The notes beneath the pieces were generated by a model. That model saw nothing but the letters and a program-made list of their open reading frames with translations. It ran no database searches and had not been told where the DNA came from. This document shows positions 24,410 to 39,654 of a DNA stretch of 39,654 bases, one piece after another (the first letter of the stretch is position 1; every line of letters begins with the position of its first letter). The translations under genes were made by a program, and so were the position numbers. The DNA lies in contig JACCZE010000080.1 in assembly GCA_013696105.1 (NCBI GenBank), positions 1 through 39,654 on the forward strand, read 5' to 3'. This DNA comes from Planctomycetota bacterium (lineage in GTDB: Bacteria > Planctomycetota > UBA11346).

Positions 24410-24957
24410 GGGGTCCCTTCGATGCGGCGCTCGGCGCATTCCTTGAGCCGACGCTGCAGCCGCGACAGGCGCTGCCGGCAGGCGTCGGGACGGATGCCCA
24501 TCGCCTCGGCCGCGGCATCGCTCGACATGCCATCGCCGTGCACCAGTTCGAACAACCGCCGGTGCTCGTCGCCGATCTCGGCCATGCACGCCTTCAATGC
24601 CACCAGGCGTTCGACCTGCTGAGGATCATCTGGCGGCTGATGGCGCAGGAGCTCCTGGCGGACCAGCTCGCGCAGATGCCTGCGGTCGCGGTCCTGCCGC
24701 CGATGGTACTCCATCAGCTGGCTGCGGGCGATGGTGATCAGCCAGGCGCGGGGGCTGGATCCGGGCCGATACTGCTCGCGCTTGACCCACGCGCGCGAGA
24801 GGGCTTCCTGGGCCAGCTCGTCCGCCAGTTCGGGATCGGCGGTTTCGCGCAGCATGGTCGCGCGGATGAGGTGGTGGCAGTTCTCGACCACCTGCGCGAA
24901 GGCCTCCTGGTCTCCGTGCTCGCGCGCTCGCGTCATCCAGCCATCGAGGTCGTCCAC
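24406..24957 (-). CDS. ECF-type RNA polymerase sigma factor
   Basis: 183 aa; 'DPELADELAQEALSRAWVKREQYRPGSSPRAWLITIARSQLMEYHRRQDR' region 2; 'GMSSDAAAEAMGIRPDACRQRLSRLQRRLKECAERR' region 4 HTH. Confidence 0.9.
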   Translation of the reverse strand: MDDLDGWMTRAREHGDQEAFAQVVENCHHLIRATMLRETADPELADELAQEALSRAWVKREQYRPGSSPRAWLITIARSQLMEYHRRQDRDRRHLRELVRQELLRHQPPDDPQQVERLVALKACMAEIGDEHRRLFELVHGDGMSSDAAAEAMGIRPDACRQRLSRLQRRLKECAERRIEGTP

Positions 24958-25072
24958 TGCCCCTCCCGCCCCTACTGTTCACGACCGAAGCGCTCCTGCA
25001 ATCGCGCCCTGCGCGTTGTGCCGGCCACCCAGGTCACACCCTGTAGCGGAGCCATCACCCGGGGAGAGGGCC

Positions 25073-26089
<1,017 letters not shown>

Positions 26090-26102
26090 GCCCGGTGCTC
26101 TG

Positions 26103-26993
26103 GTGAGCCTGCAGGGCGACGTCCACCGCCAGGTGCTCGAGCGCCTCGGCAACGTCTTCGTCTCGGCGCGCCAGGCGGTCGAGTCGGTCCTCTCCGGCCA
26201 GCACCGATCGGTGCGGCGCGGTCTGTCGGTGGAATTCGCAGGTCACCGCCCGTACCAGGCCGGCGACGACATCCGTCGCCTCGACTGGCTGGTGTATGCG
26301 CGTTCCGACCGCTACGACGTGCGCGTCCACGAGGAGGAGACGCGGCTGCGCGCGACCCTGATCGTCGATGCGAGCGGATCGATGGGCTATGCGGGAAGCT
26401 CGGGGCGGTCGAAGCTCGATCATGCCAAGGTCCTCGCCGCGGCGCTCGGCTTCCTGATGGTCCGTCAGAGCGACTCGGTGGGACTCGTGACCTTCGACCG
26501 CGCGGTGCGCGACCATCTGCCGCCCGCGACGACCATGGGCAACCTGCTGGTGATGCTCGACCGACTGGAAGCCCTGGCGCCCGGCGGCGAAACCGGCATC
26601 GGCGCGGTGCTCAGCAGCCTGGCGCCACAGCTCACGCGCCGAGGCCTGGTCATCCTCATCACCGACGCCTTCGACGATCCCGACCGCATCGCCGAAGCGC
26701 TCAGCCTGTTGCGCTACCGCAAGCAGGATGTGCGCGTGCTGCAGGTCGTCGATCCGTTGGAGCAGAGCTTCCCGTTCCCGGCAGTCATCTCCTTCCGCGG
26801 ACTCGAAGGCGAACCGACGATCACGCTCGATGCCGACCGCATCCGCGGCTACTACCACGAGTCGCTCGCAGCGCATCGCCGCGCGCTGGCCGAACGTTGC
26901 CATGCCATCGGCGTCCAGCTCGAGACCCTCCGCACCGACGAGGACCTCGCGCTCTCGCTCATCCGCATCCTGATGCAGGGCCCGGCGACATGA
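26103..26993 (+). CDS. DUF58 domain protein (VWA-like)
   Basis: 296 aa, GTG start; 'RRGLSVEFAGHRPYQAGDDIRRLDWLVYARSDRYDVRVHEEETRLRATLIVDASGSM'. Confidence 0.92.
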   Translation: MSLQGDVHRQVLERLGNVFVSARQAVESVLSGQHRSVRRGLSVEFAGHRPYQAGDDIRRLDWLVYARSDRYDVRVHEEETRLRATLIVDASGSMGYAGSSGRSKLDHAKVLAAALGFLMVRQSDSVGLVTFDRAVRDHLPPATTMGNLLVMLDRLEALAPGGETGIGAVLSSLAPQLTRRGLVILITDAFDDPDRIAEALSLLRYRKQDVRVLQVVDPLEQSFPFPAVISFRGLEGEPTITLDADRIRGYYHESLAAHRRALAERCHAIGVQLETLRTDEDLALSLIRILMQGPAT

Positions 26994-27034
26994 GGCCCCG
27001 GTATCCCGTGCGGACTCCCGTCTGCCGCTCGCCC

Positions 27035-27069
27035 GATGTCGGACGTCGGACGTCGGACTTCGGACGTTC
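27035..27069. repeat. Heptamer tandem repeat patch upstream of the BatA-like gene
   Basis: GATGTCG GACGTCG GACGTCG GACTTCG GACGTTC; period 7, ends 4 nt before the ATG at 27073. Confidence 0.85.
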
Positions 27070-27072
27070 GCC

Positions 27073-29289
27073 ATGATCTCACTCGCCAATGCTCTCCTGC
27101 TCGGCGGTCTGGTGGCGGTGGCGGCACCGGTCGTGGTGCACATCGCGCATCGTCGTCGCACGCGTACCATGGATTGGGGGGCGATGCGCTTCCTCATCGA
27201 GGTGGTGACGCGGCGCCAGCGGCAGATGTCGCTCGACCATCTGCTGCTCCTGGCGGTGCGGATGCTGGCGATCGCCTGCATCGCGTTCGCGCTGACGCGC
27301 CCGCAGCTGAGCTTCCGCGCCGCGGGTCTGGGAGACCTGATCTCGCGTACCGGCCGCACCGCGGCGGTGATCGTGATCGATGACAGCCTGTCGACCTCCG
27401 CTCCGCGCTCCGACCCGGCATTCGTCACGATGAAGCGCTTGGCGCACGCCTACATCGATACGTTGCGAGCCGGAGACGAGATCAGCCTGGTCGCCCTCTC
27501 GCGCCTGTCGGAACCCGCCGCGGATCCCATCTTCGACCTCGTCGGCGCGCACGAGTACATAGATCGGCTGGTCCCCACGGCGATCGCCAGCGACATGCCC
27601 GCGTTGATCGAGGCCGGTGTCGGACGATTTTCGCGCCATATGAACCCGCATGCCGAACTGGTGATCGTCACCGATGCGCGTGCTTCCGGGTTCTCGGTCG
27701 AGTCCAGCGACCGCTGGAGCGCCCTGCGCGGCCGGCTGACCGGCGCGGTTCAGGCCGCAGTGGGCACGCGTTCGCGGCCGCAGGTCATACTCCTCGCCGC
27801 AAGGCACGAGCATCCCCGCGGCAATCTCAGCGTCGCCGAGGTCGCCATCGACCGCACGCTCCTGCCTCCCGGACGACCGGTGACGATCATCGCCCGGCTG
27901 ATCAAGGACGGTGCTCAGCCGGTATCCGCAGCCCTGGTGCGACTGATGATCAACGGCCGGACCATCGAGGAACGCACACTCGATGTTCCCGGCGACCAGT
28001 CGCGTCAGATCAGCTTCGTGCACTCCTTCGACGAGCCGGGCAGCCACCTCATCGAGGTCGCTGTGGAAGGCGCGCGAGACGCGCTCGCCGAGGATGACCG
28101 CCGATCGCTGGCGGTCGAAGTCGAATCCGTCCTGCCGGTCCTGCTGGTCGAGGGCCGCCCGGGAACCGGTCTCGACGGTTCGCTCGGACTGCTCGCCGCC
28201 GCACTCGCGCCCAGGAACGTCGCGGGCGCTACGGGCAGCGGGGATCTCTTCGCGGTGAGCCGCGTCGGAGCGGATGGGGTGACCGAGCGTGCGCTCTCCC
28301 ACGCGCGCGTCGCCGTTCTCGGCGACGTTCCCGCGCTGGATGCGGAGGCCGTCTCGGCATTGGAACGCTTCGTAGTCGCCGGCGGCGGCATCTTCATCGT
28401 CGGCGGACCGGACACCGATCGCGATCTCGCGAACCGGTTCTGGTCCCGCGGAGGCGATGGCTTCCTGCCGACGGCTCTGGGAGCGCCCAAACGGGTACCC
28501 TCGGCGCATCCCGTGACCACGGCGGCGAGCCACCCCGCGGTTTCGGCATTCGCGGTCGGTGCCGCTGCCGCGTTACGGGAAGTCGCCGTGTCGCAGTACC
28601 TCGCGCTCACCGATCTGCCGCCCGATCTCGAACGGATCCTGGAACTGGATGACGGAAATCCCCTGCTCGTGACCCGCACCCGAGGCCGAGGCCGCGTCGC
28701 GCTCTTCGCGAGCTCGCTCGACGGCGCGTGGAACGACCTGCCCTACCGCAGCGCTTTCGTTCCCCTGTCGCGATCCCTGGTCGGCTGGTTGGGGGGCAAC
28801 ATCCTCCCGCCACGCAATCTGATCGCAGGCGACCGTCTCGCCTGGTTCCCGGCTGCCGATGGCTCGCTCGGTGACGTTACCGCCCAGGGTCCGGACGGAC
28901 AAACCCTGCCGCTCATGCGCAGCGCGTGGGAAGGGCACCCCGCGCTGGTCAGCGCGCCACTGACACGCATCGGCGCATACGCCATCCGCACCGGCGCCAG
29001 CCGACGTCCGATCTGGTTCCAGGTCGGCTTGGCCAGCGCGGAATCGCGACTCTCGCCCCTGACCGACGCCCAGCTCGAGGGAATCCTGGCGGGAATCCCA
29101 CGCCACGATGTGGCGGATCCGGCGCAGGTGTCAGGCCTGTTCACCATCGCGGGGAACCGCACCCACGAGCTGTGGCGCTGGCTGATCGCTGCCGGCATCC
29201 TCCTGTTGATCATCGAAACCGTTATCACGCAGGTCCAGTCGAAGCGCGAACGCAGCTACCCGCAGCCGGCGACCGGACGACCCGCATGA
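27073..29289 (+). CDS. BatA-like membrane protein: N-terminal double TM, VWA domain, glutamine-amidotransferase-like region
   Basis: 738 aa; 'LANALLLGGLVAVAAPVVVHIAHRRRTRTMDWGAMRFL' BatA N-terminus; 'VIVIDDSLSTSAPR' MIDAS; 'ALERFVVAGGGIFIVGGPDTD'. Confidence 0.85.
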   Translation: MISLANALLLGGLVAVAAPVVVHIAHRRRTRTMDWGAMRFLIEVVTRRQRQMSLDHLLLLAVRMLAIACIAFALTRPQLSFRAAGLGDLISRTGRTAAVIVIDDSLSTSAPRSDPAFVTMKRLAHAYIDTLRAGDEISLVALSRLSEPAADPIFDLVGAHEYIDRLVPTAIASDMPALIEAGVGRFSRHMNPHAELVIVTDARASGFSVESSDRWSALRGRLTGAVQAAVGTRSRPQVILLAARHEHPRGNLSVAEVAIDRTLLPPGRPVTIIARLIKDGAQPVSAALVRLMINGRTIEERTLDVPGDQSRQISFVHSFDEPGSHLIEVAVEGARDALAEDDRRSLAVEVESVLPVLLVEGRPGTGLDGSLGLLAAALAPRNVAGATGSGDLFAVSRVGADGVTERALSHARVAVLGDVPALDAEAVSALERFVVAGGGIFIVGGPDTDRDLANRFWSRGGDGFLPTALGAPKRVPSAHPVTTAASHPAVSAFAVGAAAALREVAVSQYLALTDLPPDLERILELDDGNPLLVTRTRGRGRVALFASSLDGAWNDLPYRSAFVPLSRSLVGWLGGNILPPRNLIAGDRLAWFPAADGSLGDVTAQGPDGQTLPLMRSAWEGHPALVSAPLTRIGAYAIRTGASRRPIWFQVGLASAESRLSPLTDAQLEGILAGIPRHDVADPAQVSGLFTIAGNRTHELWRWLIAAGILLLIIETVITQVQSKRERSYPQPATGRPA

Positions 29290-33724: not shown

Positions 33725-35158
33725 TCAGGACCTCGGCAATCCGAAGTCGAAATAGGCTGCGGCGTTCCGGTAGCAGATGTCCGCCACCATCTCGCCGACC
33801 ATGGCCACGTCGTCGGGCAGCTGGCCGTCTGCCATCTCGCGACCGAGCATGCCGCAGAGGATACGGCGGAAGTACTCGTGACGGGTGTAGCTGAGGAATG
33901 AGCGGGAGTCGGTGAGCATGCCGACGAATCGGCTGAGCAGGCCCATATTCGACAGCGCGTCGATCTGTCGCTCCATTCCGTCCTTCTGGTCGAGGAACCA
34001 CCAGCCGCTGCCGAACTGCAGCTTCCCGGGAACGGTGCCGTCCTGGAAGTTCCCGAGCATGGTGGCGAGCACCTCGTTGTCCCGAGGGTTGAGGTTGTAG
34101 AGGATGGTGCGAGCCAGCCGATCGGCGGAGTCGAGGCGATCGAGCAGGCGCGACAGCGGCGCTGCGTAATTGGCGTCGCCGATCGAATCGAACCCCTGAT
34201 CCGGACCCAGTGCCCGTCCCTGCCGGGTGTTGTTGTTGCGCATCGCACCGATGTGGTACTGCTGCACCCAACCCTTCGCGTGGTCCATCACCGCCCATTC
34301 ATAGAGCATCGCCGACTTGAAACGCCGGGATTCCAACTCGTTTGGTGCCTTTCCCGATCTGACGGCCGCGAAGATCGCATCGATATCCGCATCCGAGTAC
34401 GGTTCGGCATACACCGTGTCGAGGCCGTGATCCGACAGACGACAGCCGAGCGCATGGAAATAGTCATGCCGCTTGGCGAGCGCATCGCGGTACTGCTGCA
34501 TCGTCGCGATCGCGGTATCCGAGGCTTCCTCGAGACGTGCGATCCACGCATTGAACGTGGCGGGATCATCGATCGCCATGCCCTTGTCCGGGCGCCAGGT
34601 GGGACGGACCTGGACGGCGAAGGAGGCATCCTGGGCGATCGCGCGGTGGTGGTCGAGCGAGTCCACCGGGTCGTCGGTCGTGCAGACGACGGCGACCTGC
34701 ATCTGACGCATGATCCCGCGAGCGGTGAAGGCGCTTTCGGCGAGCCGTTCGTTGCAGGCATCCCAGATACCGCGCGCGGTGTCGGGCCCGAGCAGGCGGT
34801 CGGAGATGCCGAATGGCCGCTTGAGCTCGAGATGCGTCCAATGGTAGAGCGGATTCCTCAGGCACTTCGGCACGGTCTCGGCCCAGCGCTGGAACTTCTC
34901 CCAGTCGCTGGCGTCTCCGGTGATGAACCGCTCGGGAATGCCATTGGTGCGCATGGCCCGCCATTTGTAGTGGTCCCCGGCGAGCCAGATGGCCGACAGG
35001 TTGGCGAAACGCCGATCGGTGGCGATGTCCTGCGGCGACAAATGGCAGTGGTAGTCGACGATCGGCTGATCCTTGGCGAAGCCATGGTACAGTTCGACTG
35101 CGCGCGGCGTCGACAGCAGGAAATCCTCGGTGATGAAGGCGTCTGGGCGTCGTTCCAT
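33725..35158 (-). CDS. uxaC: Glucuronate (uronate) isomerase
   Basis: 477 aa; '[67 protein letters not shown]', '[35 protein letters not shown]' diagnostic. Confidence 0.96.
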
Positions 35159-35304
35159 GGATGTCCCCGCTGCACACGGTCAGCTGCAGCCGCTGGGACA
35201 CAAGCGGAGCCCTTTCAGAGGGCGTGGCTACGGGTGCTTTGGTTCTTTATCCGCTCACACCAGAGGTAGTTTGTGCGGCCGCTCGGAGCGAGTCCGGGAC
35301 GCCT

Positions 35305-37209
35305 ATGCTCGAATCGCTCCACGACACCTCCATCCAACGGACCGCGACCCCGGCATCCCGACCGGTGGTCGCAGCGTCGGAAGCTGAAGCTCCAGGGCCG
35401 GTCGCCCGCAGGCTACCGCATGCCGAGTGGAGGCCGCTGCGGACATCGCACCTGACTCTCGCGGCGGGGTTGTGGTTGCTGGTGACGATCGCCGCCCTCG
35501 CTTCGCGACCGCTGCTACCGGTGGACGAGACCCGGTATCTCGCGGTCGCGTGGGAGATGTGGAGCAGCGGAGACGCCCTGGTGCCGCGTCTCAATGGAGA
35601 GCCCTACGCGCACAAGGGCCCGCTCCTGTTCTGGCTGATCAACGCTGGATGGTTGCTGGTCGGGGTGAACGAATGGACGGCGCGATTGACCGCCCCGCTA
35701 TTCGGCCTTGCCAGCGTGCTGATGACGGCACGCCTCGCACGTCAACTGTGGCCGGACCTGCCGCACGTGCGCGCTGCGGCGCCGCTGATCCTCGCGGGTG
35801 GCGGATTCTGGATCGTCTTTTCGAGCTTGACGTATTTCGATTCCCTCGTGACGTGCTTCACGCTGGTCGGCCTGTCTGGGATTCTCGAGATCGGCCGTGG
35901 CAGACTGCTCCGTGGCGGCCTGATGGCGACCATCGCCATGGCGTGCGGTCTGCTGACCAAAGGGCCGGTCCTGCTCGTTCACCTCGCACCGGTCGCGATC
36001 TGCGCGCCGCTCCTCTGCGGAGCGTTTTGGGGTGCGCCCATCGATGGTCGCGCACGCTCTCGTGGAGCTTGGTATGCGACGATCCTCGTCAGCCTGGTGG
36101 CCGGGGCGCTGATCGCGCTGGCGTGGGCACTGCCAGCTGCGGCCGCTGGCGGTGAGGATTTCGCACGCTCCATCCTCTTCGGTCAATCCGCCGACCGGGT
36201 GGTGAACTCCTTCGCCCACCCCCGTCCGGTGTGGTGGTACCTGGTGATCATCCCTCCCTTGCTGTTTCCATGGGTGTGTTGGCCCGCGCTCATGCGCGCT
36301 GCAGGCGCGTGCATCCGATCCGCGGTACGACCGGCCAGCGCAGCTGCTGTGAACGGCGCAGCAGCTGCCGACAGCGGACCCGCGACCGTCCTCGCCGAGC
36401 CGGGAACGCGTCTGTGCGTGATCTGGGTGGGCGGCGTGGTCGCGGCCTTGAGCCTGGTGAGCGGCAAGCTCCCCCATTACCTGATGCCGACCCTGCCCGC
36501 ATTCGCATTGCTGATCGCTCGCATCATCCCTCTCTGCGAGGCTCGCGGCGGACGCTACGACCGTGTCCCTGCCGCGATGCTGATCCTGATCGCCGGTATC
36601 GCAGCGACCGCTCTCGGCATCGCCGGGTCGGCCAAGGCACCGGAATGGCTCCTGCGCGCCGCCCTTCCCGGAGGCCTGGTCCTGATCATCGCGTCGATAA
36701 CCCTGCTCTGGGTACGCACACGCGCGACCATGAGCTGGGTGCTGTCCACCACGGCGATCGTGTCGCTGATGGTCGCGGCGCTGCACCTCGCCATCGCGCC
36801 GGCGCTGCGCGACGGGTACGATCTGAGTCCGGTCGCCGAACGGATCTCGCGGTTCCAGCAGTCGGGCGTGCATGTCGGCCACCTCGGCCGCTACCATGGC
36901 GAATACACCTTCCGTGGCCGACTGCAGCCGCTCGAGATCATCGAGCCATACCAGCTCGACGCGTGGGCGATCGCGCATCCCCGCGGGGTGATCGTCGGTT
37001 CCTATTCCGGTCATCCATGGCAGGACATGGCATGGCCCGAGTATCGACGCAGCTTCCGCGGAAAGAGCACCGTCGCGTTGTGGAGCGCCGACGAGGAACG
37101 CTACCGAGCGCTGCGGCAGCCCGACAGAGGGCCAGAGCCGACCCCACGGGAATATCGTGACCTCCGACGAACCGTCCTCTCCGGGTCGGGCGATGCCAAC
37201 AGTCGTTGA
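35305..37209 (+). CDS. Glycosyltransferase family 39 / ArnT-like membrane transferase
   Basis: ATG at 35305 (635 aa), 35161 also possible; 'LLPVDETRYLAVAWEMWSSGDALVPRLNGEPYAHKGPLLFWLINAGWLLVG', 'KLPHYLMPTLPAFALLIARI'. Confidence 0.88.
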   Translation: MLESLHDTSIQRTATPASRPVVAASEAEAPGPVARRLPHAEWRPLRTSHLTLAAGLWLLVTIAALASRPLLPVDETRYLAVAWEMWSSGDALVPRLNGEPYAHKGPLLFWLINAGWLLVGVNEWTARLTAPLFGLASVLMTARLARQLWPDLPHVRAAAPLILAGGGFWIVFSSLTYFDSLVTCFTLVGLSGILEIGRGRLLRGGLMATIAMACGLLTKGPVLLVHLAPVAICAPLLCGAFWGAPIDGRARSRGAWYATILVSLVAGALIALAWALPAAAAGGEDFARSILFGQSADRVVNSFAHPRPVWWYLVIIPPLLFPWVCWPALMRAAGACIRSAVRPASAAAVNGAAAADSGPATVLAEPGTRLCVIWVGGVVAALSLVSGKLPHYLMPTLPAFALLIARIIPLCEARGGRYDRVPAAMLILIAGIAATALGIAGSAKAPEWLLRAALPGGLVLIIASITLLWVRTRATMSWVLSTTAIVSLMVAALHLAIAPALRDGYDLSPVAERISRFQQSGVHVGHLGRYHGEYTFRGRLQPLEIIEPYQLDAWAIAHPRGVIVGSYSGHPWQDMAWPEYRRSFRGKSTVALWSADEERYRALRQPDRGPEPTPREYRDLRRTVLSGSGDANSR

Positions 37210-39654
37210 GCCGGTTCTCGAGATCGAGGGAACCCCGGCGAGTCGCCTGCGCGAACACGCTCCGCTGATCGTTCTCGCCGCGATCTTCGCCATCGCTGCC
37301 GTGGTGGCGCATCCCTACGACGAGGCGTGGAGCCACCTCCTGCGTTTTTGGAAGGGCCTCCCCCGACCCATCGCCGATGAAGGCGTGTCCGCCATCCGCT
37401 CGCTCGGCAAGGGCGAGGTCGCCGTCGTCTTGGCCCTGGCCTTCGGTGCCCTGGGGCGACGTCGCGAGGCGTGGCGCATACTGTGCGCCCTTCTGATCGT
37501 CGGCGTGGTGGTGACGCTGATGAAGCACGGCTTCGCACGCATCCGGCCCTCGGGCGGAGCGACGTATTCGTTTCCCAGCGGGGATTCCGCCACGGTCGCT
37601 GCGGTCTTCTCCACCCTGATGGTGCGGTCGTGGCGATTCGCTCCGCTGTATGCGCTGCCGATCCTGGCCGTCGCATTCGGACGCGTGCACGAGGGATACC
37701 ATTATCCTGCCGACGTCTGCGCCGGGATCTCGCTCGGCATCCTCGCGAGCATCGCAGCGAGCTGGGCGCCCAGGCCGCGCTGGGGCTGGATGAATACGCG
37801 CGGATGGCTGATGCTGCTCATCGCGTTCCTGGGCGTGGTGTGGGCGACCCAGGAATGGACCGAGAGGAACCATCCCTTCGCGCGCCCCGATGTGCGGATG
37901 TTCGTGCTGGTGTTCGGGCCCGTGCTCGCGTGGCGGATCGCGCTGAAGCACCTGCGCATCGGCTGGTGGCGGAACTCCAGCAGATGGAACCTCCCCGCCT
38001 GGGCCGCTCCCGCGCTGCTGACCGTGGCGATACTGGTGCTATCGCTGTGGTTCAGCGGACGATCGACGCTGTGGGATCGGGACGAGCCGCGCTTCGCGCG
38101 CGCGACCGTCGAGATGGTCGCCAGCGGCGATTACCTCGTGCCGAGCTTCAATGGCGAGCCGCGCCTGCACAAACCGGTGCTCTCGTACTGGCTGATGTCG
38201 GTTCCTGTCCGCTTGTTCGGCTCGCAGGAGTGGTCGGTACGTCTGCCCGCGGTGCTCGGTTCGATCGCGACCTGCTGGCTGCTGTGGTGGACCGCGCGCA
38301 CGTTCCTCGGTTCCCGAGCGGGACATTGGCCGATCGCCATCTTCGCCACCTGTCCGCTCGTGATGGTCTGTGGAACCGCCGCGACCACCGACGCGGTGCT
38401 GGTCGCGTTCATCACCGCGGCGATGGCGCTGTTCGCCGCGCGCCTGGTCACGTCGCAGCCGGAAGAGGCCGTACGTCCGCACTGGGGCACGACCCTCCTC
38501 ATGGGGACGGCGATCGGGTGCGCGCTCCTGGTGAAAGGACCGCTGGGCCTGGTCGTACCCGCCCTGGCGTTCGCGATGACCGCGTTGCTTCTGCGTGGAT
38601 CCCGGACGTTCTCTGGCGCCTTCTGGTGGCATGTCGGCGGAGCGTGCCTGATCGCGCTCGCGCTGTTCTTCGCCTGGGCCATCCCAGCGAACGATGCGAC
38701 GCACGGGCAGTTCCTCAGGGAAGGATTCGGCAAGCACGTCGTCGGCCGCATGGGCACCAGCTTCGAGAGCCATGGCGGCGGATTCTGGTACTACGCACCG
38801 GTGGTGCTCGCGACCTTCTTCCCGTGGATCATGCTGCTGCCGGCAGCGGTGTCATCCCAGCTCGCGAAGCGCCAGGGTCCCCTGCTGCGCGCGTATCTGT
38901 TCGCCTGGCTGATCCCGTCCTTCGTGGTGATGAGCGCGGTGGCGACCAAGCTGCCGCACTACATCCTGCCGATCTTTCCCGCATTGGCCTTGGCGACGGC
39001 CGCCCTGGTGATGCTGCCGCGGTGCGAGCTGAGCGCGCGCGACCGTCGATGGCTCGCGGTCGGCCGATGGCTGGCGGGAATCGTCGGCGTCGCCCTGGTG
39101 ATCGCCCTCATCGCCGCTCCATGGGCACACCTGCTCAAAGCGCTCGAGCTGCCACCACGCCTGGCCAAGAACGTCGCGCGCGTGCCGCAGATTCCCGGAT
39201 TGCTCGCACCTGCGCTGTCGCTCGCATTGATCATCGGCGTGATGATCCATGCGGCGTGGCGCTATCAGGGAACCCTCCGGCTGCGGGGAGCCTCGGCGAT
39301 CCTGGCCTCGGGCATGACGGTGTGGGCGATCGTGGTCGGCTGGCAGGCGCTGCCGGTCGTCGAGCGGCTCAAGCTCTCGAAACCCCTGGCTCAGCAGATC
39401 CGCGAACACTCCGCCGCAGACGTTCCGATCGTGGTGTCGGGGTACGACGAGGCGAGCTTCCACTTCTACATGGACCGTGGACCCATCCCGCGTCTCGGCT
39501 CGACGTTCGAGGAATGGGCCGCAGCGCCAGGCCGGAGCATCCTGGTGACCACCGACGAGCATCTGCGTTCGCAGCCCGCGCTCGCGCAGGCGCACGTGGC
39601 GGTGATCGCCCGCGTCGAAGGCGTCAACATCGCCAACGGGGCGCTGCTGCGCCT
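37193..39654 (+). CDS. PAP2-family phosphatase fused to GT39/ArnT-like glycosyltransferase; 3' end outside window
   Basis: Manual translation from ATG 37193, no stop to window end (absent from ORF track, probably because it has no stop). N-term: KHGFARIRP / FPSGDSATVAAVFS / GRVHEGYHYPADV; C-term: 'LWDRDEPRFARATVEMVASGDYLVPSFNGEPRLHKPVLSYWLMSVPVRLFGSQEWSVRLPAVLG', 'ATKLPHYILPIFPALA'. Confidence 0.87.
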   Translation, partial: MPTVVEPVLEIEGTPASRLREHAPLIVLAAIFAIAAVVAHPYDEAWSHLLRFWKGLPRPIADEGVSAIRSLGKGEVAVVLALAFGALGRRREAWRILCALLIVGVVVTLMKHGFARIRPSGGATYSFPSGDSATVAAVFSTLMVRSWRFAPLYALPILAVAFGRVHEGYHYPADVCAGISLGILASIAASWAPRPRWGWMNTRGWLMLLIAFLGVVWATQEWTERNHPFARPDVRMFVLVFGPVLAWRIALKHLRIGWWRNSSRWNLPAWAAPALLTVAILVLSLWFSGRSTLWDRDEPRFARATVEMVASGDYLVPSFNGEPRLHKPVLSYWLMSVPVRLFGSQEWSVRLPAVLGSIATCWLLWWTARTFLGSRAGHWPIAIFATCPLVMVCGTAATTDAVLVAFITAAMALFAARLVTSQPEEAVRPHWGTTLLMGTAIGCALLVKGPLGLVVPALAFAMTALLLRGSRTFSGAFWWHVGGACLIALALFFAWAIPANDATHGQFLREGFGKHVVGRMGTSFESHGGGFWYYAPVVLATFFPWIMLLPAAVSSQLAKRQGPLLRAYLFAWLIPSFVVMSAVATKLPHYILPIFPALALATAALVMLPRCELSARDRRWLAVGRWLAGIVGVALVIALIAAPWAHLLKALELPPRLAKNVARVPQIPGLLAPALSLALIIGVMIHAAWRYQGTLRLRGASAILASGMTVWAIVVGWQALPVVERLKLSKPLAQQIREHSAADVPIVVSGYDEASFHFYMDRGPIPRLGSTFEEWAAAPGRSILVTTDEHLRSQPALAQAHVAVIARVEGVNIANGALLR

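Follow-up and report, generated by a model that had tools for sequence, protein, structure and literature searches.

The 39,654-bp window analyzed here is an entire contig (C288) of a Planctomycetota bacterium, and its 3′ end carries a plus-strand gene in which a PAP2-type phosphatase is joined to an ArnT-type glycosyltransferase of family GT39. We propose, with a probability of roughly 55%, that the product is a bifunctional inner-membrane enzyme that swaps a phosphate of an envelope lipid, probably lipid A, for a sugar. That figure was set because substrate and acceptor are read from homology and genomic context. An initial annotation of the window had suggested that the fusion could couple lipid dephosphorylation to glycosyl transfer or to carrier recycling.

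A single uninterrupted reading frame extends from either of two candidate start codons, GTG or ATG (Table 1), to the last base of the window, so that the contig end cuts the gene. Another contig from this genome (C219) overlaps the end of C288 by exactly 127 bp, as is typical of assembly-graph overlaps, and supplies 10 further residues (...LVALGRNLPE) and a stop codon 31 bp beyond the window. The completed protein has 830 residues from the ATG or 842 from the GTG. The initial annotation had described one frame encoding PAP2 motifs followed by a complete-looking GT39 domain, and both domains were indeed recognized above Pfam cut-offs, with the quoted motifs in place. It had also warned of a missed frameshift or assembly junction between ~37,760 and ~37,990. 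Both a frameshift and a chimera were ruled out, since complete head-to-tail fusions are found in five genomes of the same family (G002, G005, G013, G015, and G019; 36 to 43% identical), two more are truncated by contig ends (G001 and G021), and further copies occur in other lineages of the Planctomycetes-Verrucomicrobia-Chlamydiae (PVC) group. The frame lies on a single contig and is open in independent assemblies.

The fusion is uncommon in Planctomycetota, with 5 complete copies in 197 sampled genomes. A scan of named genomes with an alignment as the query identified 10 further fused loci, in Verrucomicrobia, Victivallales/Lentisphaerae, other PVC metagenome-assembled genomes, and another planctomycete; a single-protein query gave no matches. 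The locus L050 carries the same protein as G015. Many Phycisphaerae have a PAP2 gene after the closest GT39 genes on the same strand, and the stop and start codons of the two frequently overlap. PAP2 and GT39 are thus associated by neighborhood and by fusion alike. Because the order in these split operons, GT39 then PAP2, is the reverse of that in the fusion, an origin by simple loss of a stop codon or by fission was rejected.

In phylogenetic trees, the fused PAP2 domains formed one clade (SH-like approximate likelihood ratio test [SH-aLRT] support, 98 to 99), and the PAP2 proteins of split loci that share a PSGD motif with them, described below, formed another (97); a joint group of the two had a low support of 64. 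The fused GT39 domains were scattered over several places in a well-supported 57-row clade. A single clade for them was weakly rejected (approximately unbiased test, P = 0.022), for a group picked partly after seeing the data. The locus L118 (5533-8241) encodes a separate PAP2::GT39 fusion, with an ordinary PSGH motif and a more distant GT39 domain. The occurrence of the fusion in some lineages, of overlapping genes in reverse order in others, and of the independent L118 fusion suggests that coupling of PAP2 and GT39 has probably been selected more than once. A 1,748-residue frame in L088 was considered as a triple fusion and discarded, as the ~920 residues before its PAP2 domain resemble non-coding, high-GC read-through and contain no domain.

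The N-terminal half belongs to the PAP2 superfamily. Pfam PAP2 (PF01569) matched residues 93 to 193 (E = 6e-10; 39.4 bits versus a cut-off of 27.2), and the catalytic motifs C1 (KX6RP; K111, R118, and P119) and C3 (RX5HX3D; R164, H170, and D174) are intact. Motif C2, which was missing from the motif list of the initial annotation, reads PSGD (S129, G130, and D131) where PAP2 enzymes carry PSGH. Of 17 distinct fused proteins, 16 carry (P/V)SGD, as do 16 PAP2 genes that lie downstream as partners in split loci; PSGH is found in convergent or divergent PAP2 neighbors, and no PSGD was detected among the readable PAP2 proteins of the relatives outside the fusion. Aligned to our profile, LpxE of Aquifex aeolicus reads SFPSGDTA. 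His is likewise replaced by Asp in this enzyme, which acts on lipid A, undecaprenyl pyrophosphate (C55-PP), and phosphatidylglycerol phosphate (PGP) (PMC6581854). PSGD thus does not speak against an active lipid A phosphatase, but alone it does not decide between substrates. Escherichia coli LpxT was also considered, as a model of a phosphotransferase; its C2 motif is FPGDH rather than PSGD, indicating no special kinship.

Loss of the C2 His would also fit a pyrophosphate substrate. In E. coli PgpB, replacement of this His with Ala left 27% of the activity on C55-PP and 0.09% of that on PGP (PMC7413402). The PAP2 half might thus act as a C55-PP phosphatase, furnishing or recycling undecaprenyl phosphate for the GT39 half, with the acceptor keeping its phosphate. 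LpxE enzymes hydrolyze C55-PP too, and the undecaprenyl-diphosphatase SepP ranked first among the NCBIfam PAP2 models, with weak similarity. However, GT39 turnover itself yields polyprenyl monophosphate, so that its own cycle needs no phosphatase. Moreover, there is no clear reason for fusing a general C55-PP phosphatase to one particular GT39 enzyme, and the PSGD sequence coexists with lipid A phosphatase activity in Aquifex LpxE. We consider this explanation unlikely, and carrier recycling is thus the weaker half of the original suggestion. Its other half, the coupling of dephosphorylation to glycosyl transfer, is favored by the conserved fusion, the unfused pairs, the catalytic residues, and the fold matches to LpxE and ArnT.

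The C-terminal half is ArnT-like. Pfam PMT_2 (residues 326 to 493; 1.2e-18) and PMT (residues 293 to 494; 9e-13) were both above their curated cut-offs. These matches, a GT-C fold, a catalytic Asp-Glu pair after the first transmembrane helix, and equivalents of the phosphate-binding ArnT residues K85, R270, and Y345 place it among the GT39/ArnT-like proteins (PF02366, PF13231, and 5EZM fold). The motifs D297-E298, NGEPRLHKP, and TKLPHYILP are present. After allowing for a three-residue offset in the deposited ArnT chain, we found that D55/E56/R58, K85, D158, K203, R270, and Y345, whose roles have been described (PMC8306577 and PMC7801869), correspond to D297/E298/R300, K327, D400, K448, R519, and Y590. 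Of the functional residues of ArnT, only E84 is changed, to H326. The score against the NCBIfam ArnT equivalog (NF009784) was 162.5 bits, for a partial match over residues 275 to 649 and a cut-off of 567 bits. As the LpxE equivalog cut-off was missed as well, we call the protein an LpxE-like/ArnT-like fusion rather than ArnT or LpxE.

Conservation of all the residues reported to orient the acceptor phosphate in ArnT (D55/R58 and D158/K203) raises the question of whether the GT39 half glycosylates a lipid A phosphate as ArnT does, while the PAP2 half works at the other position, for example by removing the 1-phosphate from a molecule that receives a sugar on its 4′-phosphate. The arnT-lpxE-eptA clusters of Xanthomonas combine such activities. 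Among the fused relatives, however, the R58 equivalent is not universal (it is Phe in L039), and no acceptor-specific sequence signature separates this reading from the exchange of phosphate for sugar at one site. We give little credence to remodeling at two sites.

An AlphaFold model built from 49 sequences, which replaced a poor one built from 6 (predicted local distance difference test [pLDDT] score, 66), had a mean pLDDT of 91 and a predicted template-modeling (TM) score of 0.91; the N terminus is its low-confidence part. In Foldseek searches, the best membrane PAP2 match of the first half was Aquifex LpxE (6EBU; TM score on the target, 0.79; 2.4 Å), and the GT half matched ArnT (5F15) over nearly its whole length (TM score, 0.80). 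These matches bear on another possibility, that the PAP2 half acts on phosphatidic acid or a similar phospholipid, and that the diacylglycerol or headgroup left by dephosphorylation is glycosylated by the GT39 half. Phosphatidic acid and PGP are frequent PAP2 substrates, the PGP phosphatase YodM was the best sequence match of the PAP2 domain in the PDB, and some split PSGD PAP2 proteins (L057:6729-8162 and L072:1781-3313) bear a C-terminal PEMT/ICMT-like methyltransferase domain. Yet YodM gives a poorer fit to the model than LpxE does (TM score, 0.62), the other half matches ArnT over almost its full length, and neighboring genes for LptF/LptG and LAB_N proteins point to lipopolysaccharide. 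A glycolipid pathway of this kind appears quite improbable.

The initial annotation had called for structure prediction to locate the two active sites relative to each other. By helix count in the model, the ends of the PAP2 motifs C1, C2, and C3 and the D297-E298 loop of the GT domain share one side of the membrane, since the two extra helices predicted in the linker are even in number. The two connecting loops are rich in Arg and Lys, as expected of the cytoplasmic side. Both active sites would thus face the periplasm from the inner membrane, like those of ArnT and LpxE, and not lie at the outer membrane face as first suggested. We tentatively envisage a single-chain exchanger in PVC bacteria whose two periplasmic sites act on the same lipid, the dephosphorylated intermediate being passed on without release.

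The genomic background is consistent with a lipid A substrate. All of the 22 genomes searched, that of the window included, have LpxK, and LpxC and the WaaA domain were each found in 21. The host should therefore make phosphorylated 3-deoxy-D-manno-octulosonic acid (Kdo)-lipid A. In the mechanism that we propose, the LpxE-like, PSGD-type PAP2 half would face the periplasm and strip an envelope lipid of a phosphate by way of a phosphorylated His170 intermediate, the most likely target being the 1- or 4′-phosphate of Kdo-lipid A. An ArnC-like GT2 enzyme would make a polyprenyl-phosphate-sugar donor, from which the GT39 half would then transfer the sugar to the freed hydroxyl group. The released polyprenyl phosphate would be returned across the membrane, a step for which an adjacent DedA/VTT protein is probably responsible in some lineages.

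Several observations weigh against an exchange of phosphate for sugar on lipid A. In the majority of the family's genomes, lipid A genes are present but a fusion was not detected, and we found in the literature neither a lipid A structure for this lineage nor a solved one for the PVC group. LpxE-type enzymes are promiscuous, and the PAP2 domain scored 11.1 bits against the NCBIfam LpxE equivalog (NF007159), whose cut-off is 177 bits; Aquifex LpxE itself is ~14 to 17% identical to other LpxE proteins (PMC6581854). The L118 fusion and the co-directional partners in L043, L086, and L123 have PSGH, showing that PAP2 and GT39 can be paired without PSGD. The methyltransferase-like domain of some unfused PSGD proteins could indicate another lipid. 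Lastly, the acceptor of a GT39 enzyme cannot be read from its sequence, and ArnT itself glycosylates a phosphate, an activity that would be at odds with phosphate removal by a fused phosphatase.

The proposed exchange is by analogy the chemistry inferred for Aquifex and for LpxE or LpxF acting with RgtD or RgtF, here in one chain. In Rhizobium, Mesorhizobium, Oligotropha, and Aquifex, the PAP2 enzyme acts before a GT39 enzyme that replaces a lipid A phosphate with galacturonic acid (GalA). Those systems consist of separate proteins. In Aquifex, GalA stands in place of both lipid A phosphates, and a 1-phosphatase has to act beforehand. Its LpxE, a lipid A 1-phosphatase (PMC6581854), shares with the PAP2 half its fold, the Lys/Arg/His/Asp catalytic set, and PSGD, in a host thought to exchange lipid A phosphates for sugar. 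Unlike the fusion, whose substrate is putative, it is a stand-alone enzyme, with 23% identity in the structural alignment, and lacks the two additional helices and the GT39 domain. Cupriavidus metallidurans ArnT (5EZM/5F15) resembles the other half in its GT-C/GT39 fold over nearly the full length and in the residues given above, but is ~20% identical, has Glu84 in place of His, and carries no PAP2 domain. In the arnT-lpxE-eptA clusters of Xanthomonas (PMC8306577), GT39 and PAP2 genes are adjacent but separate, and the C2 His of LpxE is retained. Each half is of a known kind, as is the cooperation of the two, and adjacent arnT and lpxE genes have already been described. We found no report or characterization of a PAP2::GT39 fusion or of a GT39-tied PSGD group in the literature searched, which left out most subscription papers.

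Table 1. Coordinates of the fusion gene, its parts, and the adjoining GT39 gene in the window
Feature	Position	Strand	Remarks
Stand-alone divergent GT39 gene	35161..37209	+	682 aa; directly upstream of fusion
Possible N-terminal extension	37157..37192	+	12 residues; alternative GTG start at 37157, the other candidate start being ATG at 37193
PAP2::GT39 fusion protein	37193..39654	+	Length inside the window, 820 aa (ATG) or 832 aa (GTG)
PAP2 domain	37469..37771	+	Pfam; motifs C1, C2, and C3; structural match to Aquifex LpxE (6EBU)
Linker	37796..37954	+	Predicted to add two transmembrane helices (residues 202-226 and 233-254); AlphaFold model
ArnT-type GT39 domain, including C-terminal periplasmic-like part	38003..39654	+	Pfam, Foldseek, and conserved residues

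The stand-alone GT39 gene upstream of the fusion overlaps it by 17 bp counted from the ATG, as initially annotated, or by 53 bp from the GTG, and the two are likely on one transcript. L038, L039, and L065 likewise carry a second GT39 gene close to the fusion. A gene for an ArnC/PgfS-like GT2 protein lies between the two in L039 and beside the PAP2-GT39 genes in L043, and GT2 genes are linked to the locus in L057, L063, L068, L069, and others as well. In the window, no GT2 gene is linked to the fusion, and its genome (79% complete) yielded partial ArnC-type matches only. Several Phycisphaerae have LAB_N and GT2 genes near the locus; GT2 and LAB_N-type homologs are linked to arnT in other species (PMC8306577).

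In seven Verrucomicrobia-type loci (L051, L052, L053, L054, L059, L071, and L080), a DedA/VTT gene directly follows the fusion on the same strand and precedes a convergent LptF/LptG gene. DedA proteins flip undecaprenyl phosphate, and this arrangement would also suit a PAP2 half that supplies the carrier. A gene for UxaC, a glucuronate isomerase, adjoins the upstream GT39 gene in the window (33725-35158, minus strand) and likewise the GT39 partner or the fusion in L038, L041, and L044 (67 to 71% identical). It may hint at uronic acids, though UxaC is normally catabolic. Farther upstream (24731-29289, plus strand), genes for a MoxR ATPase, a DUF58/VWA protein, and a BatA-like protein form a row of the aerotolerance type.

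Lipid A phosphates are chief points of contact both for polymyxins and for receptors of innate immunity; the enzymes with which bacteria take them off or mask them are encoded separately. Through Aquifex LpxE, the PSGD subgroup of PAP2 proteins is now tied to a likely function. The fusion predicts that environmental PVC bacteria would make a phosphate-poor, sugar-bearing lipid.

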